From Mycobacterium sp. (lineage in GTDB: Bacteria > Actinomycetota > Actinomycetes > Mycobacteriales > Mycobacteriaceae), in contig WOYS01000020.1 of NCBI GenBank assembly GCA_011620645.1, forward strand, positions 72,794 through 136,793: a DNA stretch of 64,000 nt, read 5' to 3'. How positions within the stretch are numbered: position 1 is the stretch's first letter; the number at the start of each line of letters is the position of its first letter. This document shows, piece by piece, positions 47,979 through 57,234 of this stretch. Under the pieces are notes generated by a model. The model saw nothing but the letters and a program-made list of their open reading frames with translations. It did no database searches and was not told where the DNA came from. Made by a program: the position numbers and the translations under genes.

Positions 47979-50854
<2,876 letters not shown>

Positions 50855-50864
<10 letters not shown>

Positions 50865-51639: not shown

Positions 51640-53049
51640 ATGGTGACGAGACTGTCGGCGTCCGACGCGGCGTTCTATCACTTGGAGAACAGTGTGACCC
51701 CGATGTACGTCGGGTCGCTGTCCATCCTGCGCAAACCGCGCGCTGCGCTGAGCTACGAGTCGATAGTGGCCACCGTGGAGCAGCGGCTGCCGCAGATCCC
51801 GCGATATCGGCAGAAGGTCCGCGAGGTCAGCCTGGGGCTGGCCCGTCCGGTGTGGATCGACGACGGTGACTTCGACATCACATACCACGTCCGGCGATCG
51901 GCGCTGCCGTCGCCGGGAAGCGATGCGCAACTCCATGATCTGATCGCCCGGATCGGATCCCGGCCGATGGACAAGACCCGGCCGTTGTGGGAGATGTACA
52001 TCGTCGAAGGCCTGACCCGCAACCGGATCGCCATCTACACCAAATCCCACCAGGCGCTCGTCAACGGGATGTCCGCGCTGGAGATCGGGCACGTCATCGC
52101 CGACCGCACCCCGAAACCCCCGGCGTTCGGTGAGGACATCTGGATCCCGGCGCGTGAGCCCAGCGATTTCCAGCTGTTCGCCGGTGCGGTCGGGGAGTGG
52201 GTCACCCGCCCGACCGCTCAGCTGGCCGCCCTGCGCTCGACGGTGCGTGAGATGGCCACCAATGCCGGCCCCCTCGTCGAGGCCGCCCGCCGCGTCGCCG
52301 ATGTGGTTCGCACCGTCGCGCGCGGCACCGCCCCGAGCAGCCCACTGAACACGACGGTGTCGCGCAACCGGCGGTTCGCCGTGGCCGCGCACCAGCTGGA
52401 CGATTACCGGGCGTTGCGGGCGCGCTACGAGTGCGATGTCAACGATGTGGTGCTGGCGGTGGTGGCCGGCGCGCTGCGCAACTGGCTGCTCTCCCGCGGT
52501 GAGCCGGTGACCGCCACGTCGACGGTGCGGGCGATGGCGCCGAATTCGGTGTACCCCGACGCCGAGATCGATTCCGCGGGACCGGGCCAGGCCATCAGCG
52601 AGGTCTCGCCGTTCCTCGTCGATCTCCCGATCGGGGAGGGAAACGCGGTGGTGAGGCTATCCCAGATCGCCCATACCACCGAATCACATTCCACTGCGGC
52701 CAGTTTGGTCGACGCCCGCTCCATCGTCACGCTGTCGGGGTTCGCCCCGCCGACGCTGCACGCCATGGGCATCCGGGTGGCCACCAGTTTCTCGGCGCGC
52801 CAGTTCAACCTGTTGATCACCAATGTTCCGGGCGCGCAGAAGCAGATGTACGTCGCGGGCATCAAGTTGCTGGAGTCGTACGTGGTTCCGCCCCTGCTGG
52901 CGAATCAGGTACTGGCTATAGCGGTGACCTCCTATAACGGCATGTTGTACTTCGGCATCAACGCCGATCGCGACGCGATGAGCGATGTCGACGTGTTACC
53001 GGCGTTGTTGCGTGAATCCCTGGACGAATTGCTGGAATCCACGCGCTGA
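51640..53049 (+). CDS. WS/DGAT-like acyltransferase with a degenerate active-site motif
   Basis: 469 residues; corresponds to the Rv3234c-Rv3233c (tgs3) locus, which is split in M. tuberculosis but is a single gene here. Family stretches are R-L-S-A-S-D-A-A-F, D-F-D-I-T-Y-H-V-R and L-W-E-M-Y-I-V-E-G-L. The catalytic HHxxxDG appears as S-H-Q-A-L-V-N-G: the second (catalytic) His remains, the first His is Ser and the Asp is Asn. Wax ester or triglyceride synthesis is the family role; activity is uncertain. ATG 51640 (M-V-T-R-L-S-A-S-D) is chosen over earlier in-frame starts. Confidence 0.85.
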   Translation: MVTRLSASDAAFYHLENSVTPMYVGSLSILRKPRAALSYESIVATVEQRLPQIPRYRQKVREVSLGLARPVWIDDGDFDITYHVRRSALPSPGSDAQLHDLIARIGSRPMDKTRPLWEMYIVEGLTRNRIAIYTKSHQALVNGMSALEIGHVIADRTPKPPAFGEDIWIPAREPSDFQLFAGAVGEWVTRPTAQLAALRSTVREMATNAGPLVEAARRVADVVRTVARGTAPSSPLNTTVSRNRRFAVAAHQLDDYRALRARYECDVNDVVLAVVAGALRNWLLSRGEPVTATSTVRAMAPNSVYPDAEIDSAGPGQAISEVSPFLVDLPIGEGNAVVRLSQIAHTTESHSTAASLVDARSIVTLSGFAPPTLHAMGIRVATSFSARQFNLLITNVPGAQKQMYVAGIKLLESYVVPPLLANQVLAIAVTSYNGMLYFGINADRDAMSDVDVLPALLRESLDELLESTR

Positions 53050-53107
53050 CGGCCCGCCGTGCAGGTGCCCGGTGATCTCGGTGGAGAACGACTCCGACGC
53101 CGGCGGC

Positions 53108-53122
53108 TAACCTCGCTTGGTG
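53108..53122 (+). promoter_or_regulatory. -10 hexamer of a leaderless transcript for the DUF6912 gene
   Basis: TAACCT (53108-53113), six bases, then GTG 53120. This decides between GTG 53120 and TTG 53117 in favour of the GTG. Confidence 0.55.
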
Positions 53123-53626
53123 CGTGTCTATATACCGGCGACTCTGGCGATGTTGCAGCAACTGGTGGCCGATCGGTTGATCCATGCTCGCAGCGGCACG
53201 GCGTTCGCCGTGACGCCGACGCTGCGTGAGTCCTACGCCGAGGGCGATGACGACGAGCTGGCCGAGGTGGCCCTGCGTGAGGCGGCACTGGCCTCGCTGC
53301 GTCTGCTTGCCGGCCAGGGCGAGACCGGTCTGCCGCCGCGGCGTGCGGTGCTGGTCGCTGATATCGGCGCGGGAATCGAGGCCACCATCCGTCCGGATCT
53401 GGATGACGCGGTGGTGCGGCTGTCGGGGCCGGTGGCCCTCGACGATGTCATCGCCGCCTACGTCGACAACGCCGCTGCGGAGGCCGCGGTTCTGGTCGCC
53501 GTCGATCTGGTCGACGACGCCGATCTGGGAGACGAGGACGCCGAACTGGCCGTCGGCGATGCCCAGGACCATGATCTTGCGTGGTACGCCCCACAGGAGC
53601 TGCCGTTCCTGCTCGATCTACTGTGA
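53120..53626 (+). CDS. Conserved hypothetical protein (Rv3231c-type, DUF6912)
   Basis: 168 residues, strongly acidic in the C-terminal third. Starts V-R-V-Y-I-P-A-T-L-A-M-L. No membrane segment or catalytic motif. In M. tuberculosis ppk2 (Rv3232c) precedes it; here only 70 bases separate it from the acyltransferase gene and ppk2 is absent. Function unknown. Confidence 0.78.
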   Translation: MRVYIPATLAMLQQLVADRLIHARSGTAFAVTPTLRESYAEGDDDELAEVALREAALASLRLLAGQGETGLPPRRAVLVADIGAGIEATIRPDLDDAVVRLSGPVALDDVIAAYVDNAAAEAAVLVAVDLVDDADLGDEDAELAVGDAQDHDLAWYAPQELPFLLDLL

Positions 53627-53659
53627 CGGATATCGCTTCCGGCCAGGCTCAAAGCCGGG

Positions 53660-53686
53660 TACGCATGCGTAAGTTACGGTACCGTA
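53660..53686. promoter_or_regulatory. Paired palindromic operator TACGNNNNCGTA before the desaturase reductase gene
   Basis: Two perfect 12-bp palindromes, TACGCATGCGTA (53660-53671) and TACGGTACCGTA (53675-53686), start 15 bp apart. The second overlaps the likely -10 TACCGT (53680-53685), which is seven bases before the GTG. A repressor bound here would block transcription directly. Confidence 0.7.
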
Positions 53687-53692
53687 GGTCGC

Positions 53693-54847
53693 GTGGCCAA
53701 GAGTGAAATCAAGGTCTCGGCCAAAGTAGCCGAGACGGTGCGTCCGAAGATTGCGGGCGCAGACCGCCACCGTGGATGGCACGCACTGCGCACCATCGCC
53801 GGCCGGTTCACCACCCCGCTGCTGCCCGACGATTACCTCAAGTTGGCCAACCCGTTGTGGTCGGCACGTGAATTGCGCGGTCGCGTCATCGAAGTGCGGC
53901 GCGAGACCGAGGCCTCGGCGACCCTGGTGATCAAGCCGGGCTGGGGCTTCTCGCTGGACTACGAGCCCGGCCAGTACGTCGGCATCGGTCTGCTGGTCGA
54001 CGGGCGCTGGCGCTGGCGCTCCTACTCACTGACCTCGACTCCGGTGCGCGGCGGGGTGGACAAGCGTGGCGCGCGCACCATCACCATCACCGTGAAGGCG
54101 ATGCCGGAGGGCTTCCTGTCGACCCACCTGGTCGGCGGCGTGGAACCCGGCACGATCGTGCGTCTGGCGGCACCGCAGGGCAACTTCGTGATGCCCGATC
54201 CCGCGCCCGCTTCGGTGCTGTTTCTGACCGCCGGGTCGGGGATCACCCCAGTCATGTCGATGCTGCGCACCCTGCAGCGCCACGACCAGATCACCGACAT
54301 CGTGCATGTGCATTCGGCGCCGACCGCGTCCGACGTCATGTTCGCCGGCGAGTTGACCGCCCTGCACGACGTACACCCCGGCTACCGGATGGAGTTGCGC
54401 ACCACGCGCACCCAGGGACGCCTGGACCTGGATCGTCTCGGTGAGGTGGTTCCCGACTGGCGTGACCGCCAGGCCTGGGCATGTGGCCCGGAGGCGATGC
54501 TCAACGACGCCGAGCGGGTCTGGGCGGAGGCGGGTATCCCCACGCATCTTCATCTGGAGCGTTTCGCGGTCACCCGTGCCGCACCGCATGGCACCGGTGG
54601 CACCGTCACGTTCGAGCGCAGCGGCAAGAGTGTGGCGGCCGATGCCGCGACGTCGCTGATGGAAGCCGGCGAGGGCGCCGGTATCCAGATGCCGTTCGGG
54701 TGCCGGATGGGCATCTGTCAATCGTGTGTTGTGGGTCTGGTCGAGGGGCATGTGCGCGATCTCCGCACCGGGGTGGAACACGAGCCGGGAACCCGGGTGC
54801 AGACCTGTGTCTCGGCGGCTTCCGGCGACTGCGTACTGGACGCCTAG
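53693..54847 (+). CDS. Flavin/2Fe-2S oxidoreductase, electron donor to DesA3
   Basis: 384 residues, orthologue of Rv3230c. FAD-binding ferredoxin-reductase domain (R-S-Y-S-L-T-S-T), NAD(P)H domain ([21 protein letters not shown]) and a C-terminal plant-type 2Fe-2S domain with C-R-M-G-I-C-Q-S-C plus a distal Cys (Q-T-C-V-S). It supplies electrons to the stearoyl-CoA Delta-9 desaturase DesA3. GTG 53693 is probably leaderless. Paired with desA3, 68 bases downstream. Confidence 0.94.
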
Positions 54848-54850
54848 CCT

Positions 54851-54893
54851 TTACTGACAGGTAACCTACGGTGGCGTAGGTTACGCTATCGTA
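54851..54893. promoter_or_regulatory. desA3 operator region: TTACTGACAGGTA plus paired TACGNNNNCGTA
   Basis: TACGGTGGCGTA (54867-54878) and TACGCTATCGTA (54882-54893) start 15 bp apart, exactly as upstream of the reductase gene. The first is centred in the longer inverted repeat GTAACCTACG / CGTAGGTTAC (54861-54884). The second contains TATCGT (54887-54892) as likely -10. TTACTGACAGGTA (54851-54863) resembles the fadE25 site. Confidence 0.7.
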
Positions 54894-54915
54894 GTAAGGG
54901 AAGGAGGGCCGATAG

Positions 54916-56163
54916 GTGGCTATTACCGACGTAGCGGCGTTCACGCATCTGACCGATGCGGATATCGAAACGCTGGGTGCAGAGCTGGATGCGATCCGTC
55001 AGGACATCGAGGATTCCCGGGGCGCGAACGATGCGCGATACATCCGTCGGGCGATTGCCGGCCAGCGTGCGCTGGAGATCGTCGGACGCCTGTTACTTGC
55101 CGGCAGCTCCAAGCGAGCCTTCTGGTGGGCGGGCGCCTCGACCTTGGGCGTGGCCAAGATCATCGAGAACATGGAGATCGGCCACAACGTCATGCACGGC
55201 CAGTGGGACTGGATGAACGATCCCGAGATTCACTCCTCGACGTGGGAGTGGGACATGGCCGGAGCATCCAGGCACTGGCGCTTCACTCACAACTTCATGC
55301 ACCACAAGTACACCAACATCCTGGGTATGGACGACGATGTGGGCTACGGCGTCATCCGCGTCACCCGCGATGCCCGGTGGAAACCGTTCAACCTGTCGAA
55401 TCTGATCTTCAACACGCTGCTGGCTGCCCTGTTCGAATGGGGTGTCGGGTTGCAGCACCTGGAACTCGGGAAGATCTTCAAGGGCCGTGACGACCGCGCG
55501 GCGACCATCGAGCGGGCCAAAGAGTTCGGCGTGAAGGCCGGTCAGCAGGTGGCCAAGGATTATGTGGTGTGGCCCGTGCTGACGGCGCTGTCACCGGGAG
55601 CCACCTACAAGTCCACGATGAAGGCGAACATCGTCGCCAACATCATCCGCAACGTCTGGGCCAACGCCGTCATCTTCTGCGGCCATTTCCCCGACGGCGC
55701 AGAGAAATTCACCAAGACCGATATGGTCGGCGAGACCAGGGGTGAGTGGTACCTGCGGCAGCTGCTGGGCAGCGCCAATTTCGAGAACGGCCCGGTGCTG
55801 CGCTTCATGAGCGGCAACCTGTGCTACCAGATCGAGCATCACCTGTACCCGGACCTGCCCAGCAACCGGCTCTATGAGATCTCGATCAAGGTGCGGGCGC
55901 TGTGCGACAAGTACGACCTGCCCTACACCACCGGGAACTTCCTGGTGCAGTACGGCAAGACGTGGCGCACCATCGCCAAGCTGTCGTTGCCGGACAAGTT
56001 CCTCAAGGACACCCGTGACAACGCGCCCGAAACCTGCAGCGAGCGGATGTTCGACGAGTTGGAAGGGTTCGGTGTCGCCGATCCGGCCACCGGCAAGCGC
56101 CGCGGCCTGAAGACCGCGATCGCGACCGTCCGCGGTTGGCGTCGGGGCAAGGTCGTCGCATAG
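54916..56163 (+). CDS. desA3: Stearoyl-CoA Delta-9 desaturase DesA3
   Basis: 415 residues, orthologue of Rv3229c. Membrane di-iron desaturase making oleic acid. Three His boxes are intact: H-N-V-M-H (residues 90-94), H-N-F-M-H-H (125-130) and Q-I-E-H-H-L-Y-P near residue 300. Hydrophobic segments lie between the boxes. GTG 54916 follows AAGGAGG. Works with the reductase upstream; both share operator sequences, so they are co-regulated though separately promoted. Confidence 0.96.
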   Translation: MAITDVAAFTHLTDADIETLGAELDAIRQDIEDSRGANDARYIRRAIAGQRALEIVGRLLLAGSSKRAFWWAGASTLGVAKIIENMEIGHNVMHGQWDWMNDPEIHSSTWEWDMAGASRHWRFTHNFMHHKYTNILGMDDDVGYGVIRVTRDARWKPFNLSNLIFNTLLAALFEWGVGLQHLELGKIFKGRDDRAATIERAKEFGVKAGQQVAKDYVVWPVLTALSPGATYKSTMKANIVANIIRNVWANAVIFCGHFPDGAEKFTKTDMVGETRGEWYLRQLLGSANFENGPVLRFMSGNLCYQIEHHLYPDLPSNRLYEISIKVRALCDKYDLPYTTGNFLVQYGKTWRTIAKLSLPDKFLKDTRDNAPETCSERMFDELEGFGVADPATGKRRGLKTAIATVRGWRRGKVVA

Positions 56164-56175
56164 CGAACCACCCTT

Positions 56176-56218
56176 ACCGCGAGTGTGCATGTCTGGTCCA
56201 GGCACGCACCCTCGCGGT
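56176..56218. terminator. Bidirectional hairpin between desA3 and rsgA
   Basis: ACCGCGAG-T-GTGC (56176-56188) pairs with GCAC-C-CTCGCGGT (56206-56218), 12 pairs with one mismatch, in the gap between these convergent genes. No U-tract on either side. Confidence 0.55.
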
Positions 56219-56247
56219 TCGGCGTTTGCGCATGATCGCCGTCGGCG

Positions 56248-57234
56248 TCAGTAACCCGACTCCGCCAGCGTCGCCAGCAGGAGCCGTGCCGCCGCGACTC
56301 GTGCGGCGGCGGGCCCGGTCAGCGTGTCCAGCGCGCATTCCGGATCGGCCGGCGGGCCCATGTGCCCGCAGCCCCGGGGGCAGTCGTCCGCCGCCTCGGC
56401 CAGATCCGAGAAGGCCTGCACCACATCGTCGGGTTGTACGTGGGCCAGGCCGAACGAGCGGATGCCGGGAGTGTCGATCACCCAGCCCGATTCGCGCAGT
56501 GGCAACGCTATCGACTGCGTCGAGGTGTGCCTGCCCTTGCCCACTCCGGTGACCGATCCGGTGGCCCGTTCCGCCTCGGGCACAAGACGATTCACCAAGG
56601 TGGACTTGCCCACCCCGGAATGCCCCAATAGGACGGTCACTTTCCCGTCCAGCAGCGGGGCCACCACGTCGAGCGGATCGTCGCGTCCCGCCGTCACGAT
56701 CCGAAGATCCAGATCGGCGAACTGCGCCGCGAACGGCTCCGGCGCTGCAAGATCGGATTTCGTCAGGCAGAGGATCGGCGAGAGACCGCCGGTATAGGCG
56801 GCGATGAGCGCGCGCTCCACGAAGCCGGTGCGCGGTGGCGGGTCGGCCAGCGCCACGACGATCAGCAGCTGATCGGCGTTGGCGACCACCACCCGTTCGG
56901 TCGGGTCGGTGTCATCGGCGGTGCGGCGCAACACCGTACGGCGATCACCGCGCCGCACGATGCGGGCCAGGGTATCGGGTAGGCCGGACAGGTCGCCGAC
57001 GATGCTGACCTCATCGCCGACCACGATCGGTGTGCGGCCCAGCTCCCGGGCGCGCATCGCGGTCACGTTCCGATCGGGGTCACCACCCAGGGCGCAGCCC
57101 CACCGGCCGCGGTCGACGGTGACGACCATCGCCTCGGCGGCGTCGGCATGGTCTGGCCGGGTCTTGGTGCGCGGCTTGGAGCCCCGACCTGGGCGTACCC
57201 GGACATCGGACTCGTCGTACTCGCGGGCTTTCAC
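56248..57234 (-). CDS. rsgA: Ribosome small-subunit-dependent GTPase RsgA
   Basis: 328 residues, orthologue of Rv3228. OB-fold, circularly permuted GTPase (T-K-S-D-L before [10 protein letters not shown], then D-T-P-G-I-R-S-F-G) and a C-terminal zinc knuckle (C-P-R-G-C-G-H). Helps mature the 30S subunit. GTG 57234 ([10 protein letters not shown]) overlaps the aroA stop (GTGA, 57231-57234). Confidence 0.93.

Follow-up and report, generated by a model that had tools for sequence, protein, structure and literature searches.

The window, a 64,000-nucleotide stretch of a Mycobacterium sp. genome, raises the question of which regulator acts through the paired palindromes lying ahead of two adjacent fatty acid desaturation genes, and how far this arrangement extends beyond the locus. 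The upstream gene (53693..54847, + strand) encodes a desaturase reductase of the Rv3230c/fnr1 type with FAD, NAD and 2Fe-2S domains, and the downstream one (54916..56163, +) is desA3, coding for a membrane fatty acid desaturase (PF00487) of the Rv3229c type. We regard the two as counterparts of Rv3230c-Rv3229c and of M. kansasii fnr1-desA3. According to the accessible passages of a study on M. kansasii, fnr1-desA3 are makers of oleic acid, and mutants of both genes grow poorly and are rescued with oleic acid (PMC9861118). The first-pass annotation had proposed a shared double operator controlling two desaturase genes. Both genes do carry the pair, but only one of them is a desaturase, the other being its reductase.

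At the reductase promoter, the outer (upstream) operator R1 (TACGCATGCGTA, 53660..53671, +) is followed by the promoter-proximal R2 (TACGGTACCGTA, 53675..53686, +), and upstream of desA3 the operators D2 (TACGGTGGCGTA, 54867..54878, +) and D3 (TACGCTATCGTA, 54882..54893, +), the latter promoter-proximal, are arranged in the same way. The four palindromes, starting at 53660, 53675, 54867 and 54882, thus form two pairs, each 15 bp apart start to start, as had been noticed from the letters. A search with the looser form TAC-N6-GTA reveals a further outermost site of desA3, D1 (TACTGACAGGTA, 54852..54863, +), which displays this form only; what had been described as a double operator is here an array of three sites in 15-bp steps, with D2 in the middle. 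The stricter TACGN4CGTA occurs 4 times in the window vs 0.27 expected, and none of 100 shuffles attains 4, in agreement with the initial view that chance was unlikely. The looser form is found 9 times vs 1.21 expected, the four occurrences beyond the arrays being scattered. Ahead of the desA3 start, a ribosome-binding-like GAAGGAGG was seen by eye (54900..54907, +). Two other features were noted in the window. A near-perfect inverted repeat at 53714-53736, with 10 pairs (one of these is G-T when read on the minus strand) and a 3-base loop, lies within the initial codons of the reductase gene just 3′ of the operators, and a SecA-like protein (47979-50864) displays in its translation AQSQDR repeats in tandem near the C-terminus.

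The window's own assembly (3,976,197 bases, 128 contigs) was scanned with the reversed pattern as control. Genome-wide, the exact pair marks three distinct promoters, those of the reductase, of desA3 and, on contig C54, of an acyl-ACP desaturase of the DesA type, while the reversed pattern is found nowhere. The search suggested at first pass therefore returned desaturase functions exclusively. When up to 2 mismatches are allowed, two extra places appear, on contigs C83 and C111; the looser pair without mismatch adds nothing genome-wide but the outer desA3 site. Since contig C55 duplicates a portion of C45, the contig of the window, two of these promoters appear twice in the list; the repeat is identical in the compared stretches (window 52160-56393; L001/L004 and L002/L005) and the assembly is redundant there. 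The gene of the own FasR ortholog is carried by the part of C55 past the end of C45.

Lack of conservation in related species had been named as the observation that would weigh against the paired sites. We compared 80 loci of named mycobacteria, the best 80 of at least 577 relatives, with testable upstream regions for 79 desA3 and 64 reductase genes. Among these best 80, the looser pair is present at 68/79 desA3 loci (exact pair 62/79, triple array 62/79) and at 55/64 reductase loci (exact pair 47/64), all 64 of the latter having at least one site. No reductase gene was found at the 11 pairless desA3 loci, which are thus paralogues in appearance; for one of them (L207), the upstream sequence amounts to 156 bases only. 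In the genus sample, 111 of 118 genomes contain the looser pair and 8 of 118 the reversed control. The Rv1019-type TetR gene, discussed below, looks intact in four of the seven genomes devoid of the looser pair, is broken in two and is missing from one, which is 72% complete. One of the four with an intact-looking gene (G325) has retained the desA3 promoter array with a mismatch (L116). Variations of the locus were also observed. In three mycobacterial genomes (L118, L119, L120), desA3 by eye comes almost directly after the reductase gene and lacks a separate site, as though a single promoter now served both genes. In two reduced mycobacterial genomes (3.3 Mb; L111, L112, L122), the Rv1019-type gene is broken and the looser pair is absent; one contains just a broken desA3-like gene (47% identity) and the other none at E<=1e-30.

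Comparison of exact pairs points to a motif larger than the palindrome. The 3-bp linker between the two sites is RSY in 174 of 176 pairs (66/67 order and phylum loci, 108/109 named mycobacteria), the corresponding figure for background triplets being 186/1408. The outer flanks also tend to RSY, upstream in 50/59 and downstream in 43/59 of the order and phylum loci. In named mycobacteria this holds for the downstream flank (105/109) and weakly for the upstream one (17/48). We read the fuller motif as an 18-bp unit, RSY-TACG-N4-CGTA-RSY, with one RSY common to adjoining units, and this sharing would fix the 15-bp phase. Given about 10.5 bp per turn, such a phase would set neighbouring dimers on nearly opposite faces of the DNA.

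The proximal sites display a second constraint. The likely -10 hexamers pointed out in the first-pass annotation, TACCGT within R2 (53680-53685, +) and TATCGT within D3 (54887..54892, +), are indeed at equal offset, both corresponding to bases 6-11 of their site. Among the best 80 of at least 577 relatives, TA at bases 6-7 is kept in the proximal desA3 site of 62/68 pair-bearing loci and in the proximal reductase site of 55/55, vs 2/68 and 5/55 for the respective next site upstream. As the palindrome itself does not require TA at these positions, the simplest reason would be a TANNNT hexamer serving as -10 within the operator, and we suppose that the proximal operator contains such a putative -10 element at both promoters. 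This assignment is limited to desA3 and the reductase, since 1/35 SCD promoters and 2/14 DesA-type promoters have TA at these two bases of their proximal site. A search of 53500-55000 for sigma-70-like promoters of E. coli type gave no match. At the reductase, 6 bases separate the site from the start codon in the window, and 5-6 bases in 16/55 relatives among the best 80 of at least 577, the gap being longer in the others. The short gap would fit a leaderless reductase transcript with its mRNA 5′ end at or near GTG 53693.

Outside the genus, the pair was followed in an order sample of 249 genomes, some incomplete, in which regulator types were called at E<=1e-25. The exact pair occurs in 155 of them vs 9 for the reversed pattern, so that random phased pairs, the other observation named as adverse at first pass, are rare there as in the own genome. 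The FasR type was detected in 238/249 genomes and the Rv1019-type TetR in 200/249. The 200 genomes in which it was detected divide into 154 that contain the pair and 46 that are pairless; of the 49 without the Rv1019 type, which are spread over seven families, 48 are pairless, the sole exception being 63% complete (these counts ignore shared ancestry). Operator presence thus tracks regulator presence (154/155; 48/49), but not conversely, as 46/200 regulator genomes have no exact pair. In the phylum sample, the exact pair is found in 47/346 genomes (reversed control 3/346), including 9/9 genomes of genus g70, which we take for Streptomyces from its gene order.

The genes behind the pair were classed by tblastn at 58 loci, 30 from the order scan and 28 new ones from the phylum scan, a set that is not a random draw. 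The gene directly downstream encodes a desaturase or reductase at 55 of them: 35 SCD-type, 13 DesA-type and 7 desA3/reductase; the other three (L126, L127, L153) have no such gene. L153 displays three exact in-phase sites (1501-1542), and the gene behind them resembles by eye a nitronate monooxygenase or a FabK-type enzyme. In 28/35 SCD loci, a gene of the Rv1019-type TetR starts within 1.5 kb in the same 3-kb locus, and for two SCD loci (L038, L039) a piece of the TetR gene was recovered further downstream in longer stretches (L060, L058). Moreover, glmU is divergent beside the pair in 25/25 SCD loci of the order sample.

The linkage leads to a protein of the window's own genome. One such pair-linked TetR (G041) finds its best own-genome match on contig C113, with 63% identity over 133 aa; with FasR it shares 39% over 106 positions. 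Between glmU and the C113 gene (L073, 4324-4965) lies tRNA-Gln, and on the other side of the TetR gene a single gene separates it from mfd (glmU and mfd were identified by eye). We presume the C113 gene to be of the Rv1019 type from its context, namely the M. tuberculosis gene order and the published target mfd-mazG. In the tree, mycobacterial Rv1019 types group with 16 linked TetRs, apart from FasR, with support 93/89, below the mark for a firm branch; the remaining own TetRs display long branches. The recognition helix is VSKPVVYEHF in 16/17 aligned members and VSKPIVYEHF in the remaining one, while in the TetR of L051, outside that alignment, G replaces E. The mfd-mazG target of Rv1019 is cited in the passages available of PMC9579286.

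By its sequence, the Rv1019 type is a paralogue of FasR. FasR is the nearest solved structure found by sequence for the own Rv1019-type protein (E 1.4e-27), which scores 113.9 bits against the FasR model, cut-off 330. The FasR helix VSKPVLYQHF differs from that of the Rv1019 type at 2 of 10 positions. As for the ligand pocket, FasR Leu106 and Leu185 are kept in 17/17 Rv1019-type members and Leu98 in 15/17. Phe123 and Phe138 are replaced, so that the ligand may differ; a fatty acyl ligand for the Rv1019 type is plausible but unproven.

The own Rv1019-type gene neither carries the operator nor follows an operator-bearing desaturase, as its relatives do at the SCD loci counted above. No TAC-N6-GTA was found across 10 kb around it (L073 1-10001, into mfd). 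Auto-control by this operator would thus be absent in this genome, and the reported control of mfd-mazG would here need another kind of site.

Part of this picture is already in print. The first-pass annotation did not recognise a published motif, yet a predicted TAC...GTA palindrome, found in clusters of 2-3 sites and tied to palmitate, has been known since McGuire et al. 2012 as motif X, with three sites at Rv3229c, two at Rv3230c and three at Rv2524c/fas in the accessible part of that paper (PMC3388012). Motif X differs from the present operator in that it includes fas, and the available passages give no regulator, RSY flank, TetR link or spread beyond mycobacteria. Rv1019 itself is reported, in the title of Pushparajan et al. 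2022 (doi 10.1111/febs.16647, in PMC9861118), as repressor of the Rv3230c-Rv3229c oleic acid operon. This is independent support, since our comparisons pointed to the Rv1019 type separately. Judging from that title, the repressor acts on the same operon; here we deal with an ortholog in another mycobacterium, and the DesA-type desaturase is a candidate additional target. In S. coelicolor, SCO3129 reportedly regulates SCO3128, SCO3130 and itself (He et al. 2018, as cited in a passage of PMC8303971), SCO3128 being a putative fatty acid desaturase according to the part available of PMC6585502. By its description, SCO3129 seems to represent the Rv1019 type in Streptomyces: it is a TetR controlling a desaturase gene, and in g70 a desaturase followed by this TetR type is found with the pair present. 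What differs is that the passages at hand describe SCO3129 as an osmotic-stress regulator (PMC8303971, PMC7169405). In the literature, covered mostly through open-access passages, we found none that ties the paired operator to Rv1019. At this locus, our results hence confirm, without surprise, the pattern and the regulator that the M. tuberculosis literature has. New are the link between operator and regulator, the breadth of the regulon, the RSY-flanked motif and the conserved -10-like hexamer in the proximal site.

FasR (Rv3208 type), the acyl-CoA-responsive TetR activator of fas-acpS, was the regulator that we first favoured, on account of McGuire's grouping of the fas, Rv3229c and Rv3230c sites in a single motif (PMC3388012, in part), which suggests FasR, and of the crystal structure of the M. 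tuberculosis protein. In the passages available, the fas promoter oligonucleotide of that structure contains TACCCGTACGTA, of the same TAC-N6-GTA form (PMC7382501). The own genome has a FasR ortholog (L010 protein, 382.3 bits, above the NCBIfam cut-off of 330) and, upstream of its own fas, a matching TACCCGGGCGTAGAACTCGCCAGTA with two more, widely spaced TAC-N6-GTA sites. Genome profile and gene linkage displaced this candidate. FasR shows no association with the pair, being present in 150/155 genomes with the pair vs 88/94 without (absent from 5 and 6, respectively; Fisher p 0.34). In family f4, represented in the sample by 17 genomes of a single genus, every genome has FasR, and none has the Rv1019 type or the pair. 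At the own fas promoter, TAC-N6-GTA sites do not form an exact pair with 15-bp phasing, and the operator-linked TetR is not FasR, as judged from identity, model score and tree. FasR as the main regulator of both promoters is thus improbable to us. The crystal site form and the two helix differences in ten suggest that FasR could also bind; we hold it for a minor possibility, at roughly one chance in four, that it is an additional player at these promoters. A related reading, with the two paralogues competing for a common TAC/GTA half-site and thereby cross-wiring fas and the desaturases, draws on the near-equal recognition helices and the alike core sites; it has to face a different array geometry, 15-bp phase here vs an imperfect second site 13 bp off in the fas oligonucleotide (by eye), and we regard it as rather unlikely. 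In the own fas region (L012), a second, imperfect site was likewise seen by eye 13 bp from TACCCGGGCGTAGAACTCGCCAGTA, not 15. As described in the part available of the same paper, FasR resembles the Rv1019 type as a paralogous TetR with a TAC-N6-GTA core and nearly the same recognition helix, but is an activator of fas-acpS with another phylogenetic profile and another array geometry (PMC7382501).

Other candidates were considered. MadR (Rv0472c) is, like the proposed regulator, a TetR repressor of mycobacterial desaturases (desA1, desA2) and is acyl-CoA-responsive, but it was ruled out by its differing motif, the consensus TCTGTGxxxxxxxGT given in the passages available; these also indicate that desA3 is not up-regulated by deletion of madR in M. 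smegmatis (PMC8872791). AlkX (Rv3249c) was also weighed; its paper mentions neither desA3/Rv3229c nor any palindrome, motif or inverted repeat. The main text of an iModulon paper names neither FasR nor the desA3 and reductase genes. That the repeats themselves are an artefact of chance or composition can practically be dismissed, given their excess in the window, the reversed controls in the own genome and in the order sample, and the association with a gene class.

We consider it very probable that these promoters are controlled chiefly by the Rv1019-type TetR, acting as their repressor. The initial idea of one TetR-type repressor of oleate synthesis, acting on core-promoter sites, is in this respect supported by the profile, the linkage, the -10-like conservation and the title report on Rv1019. 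In the model that we propose, the sites would be tandem operators on which each dimer occupies one RSY-TACG-N4-CGTA-RSY unit. Two dimers at the reductase and three at desA3, perhaps bound cooperatively and with all sites occupied, would mask the -10 element together with the spacer and so exclude RNA polymerase. Common repression would keep the reductase and the desaturase of oleate synthesis in step, rising and falling together. The repressor would be released by a hydrophobic ligand, for which a long-chain (saturated) acyl-CoA signalling desaturation demand is the likeliest candidate; this acyl-CoA sensing is the weakest step of the model.

A broader reading can be put forward tentatively, and we would ourselves bet against it: an ancient TetR repressor with a fixed tandem operator would govern distinct desaturase classes in a large part of the phylum (SCD-type, DesA3-type membrane desaturases with their reductase, and unrelated acyl-ACP desaturases), and would in mycobacteria be coupled to FAS I via the near-identical half-site of FasR, saturated acyl-CoA turning synthesis off and desaturation on.

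Oleate synthesis by the reductase and desA3 pair is needed for normal growth, as indicated by the M. kansasii mutants. With the Rv1019 type, a published orphan motif would gain a regulator that had been reported apart for the DNA-repair genes mfd-mazG, for osmotic stress and for the oleate operon. Rv1019 and SCO3129 would then become one family of actinobacterial regulators of membrane unsaturation. Moreover, the operator is searchable in any genome and could serve to locate further desaturase genes.
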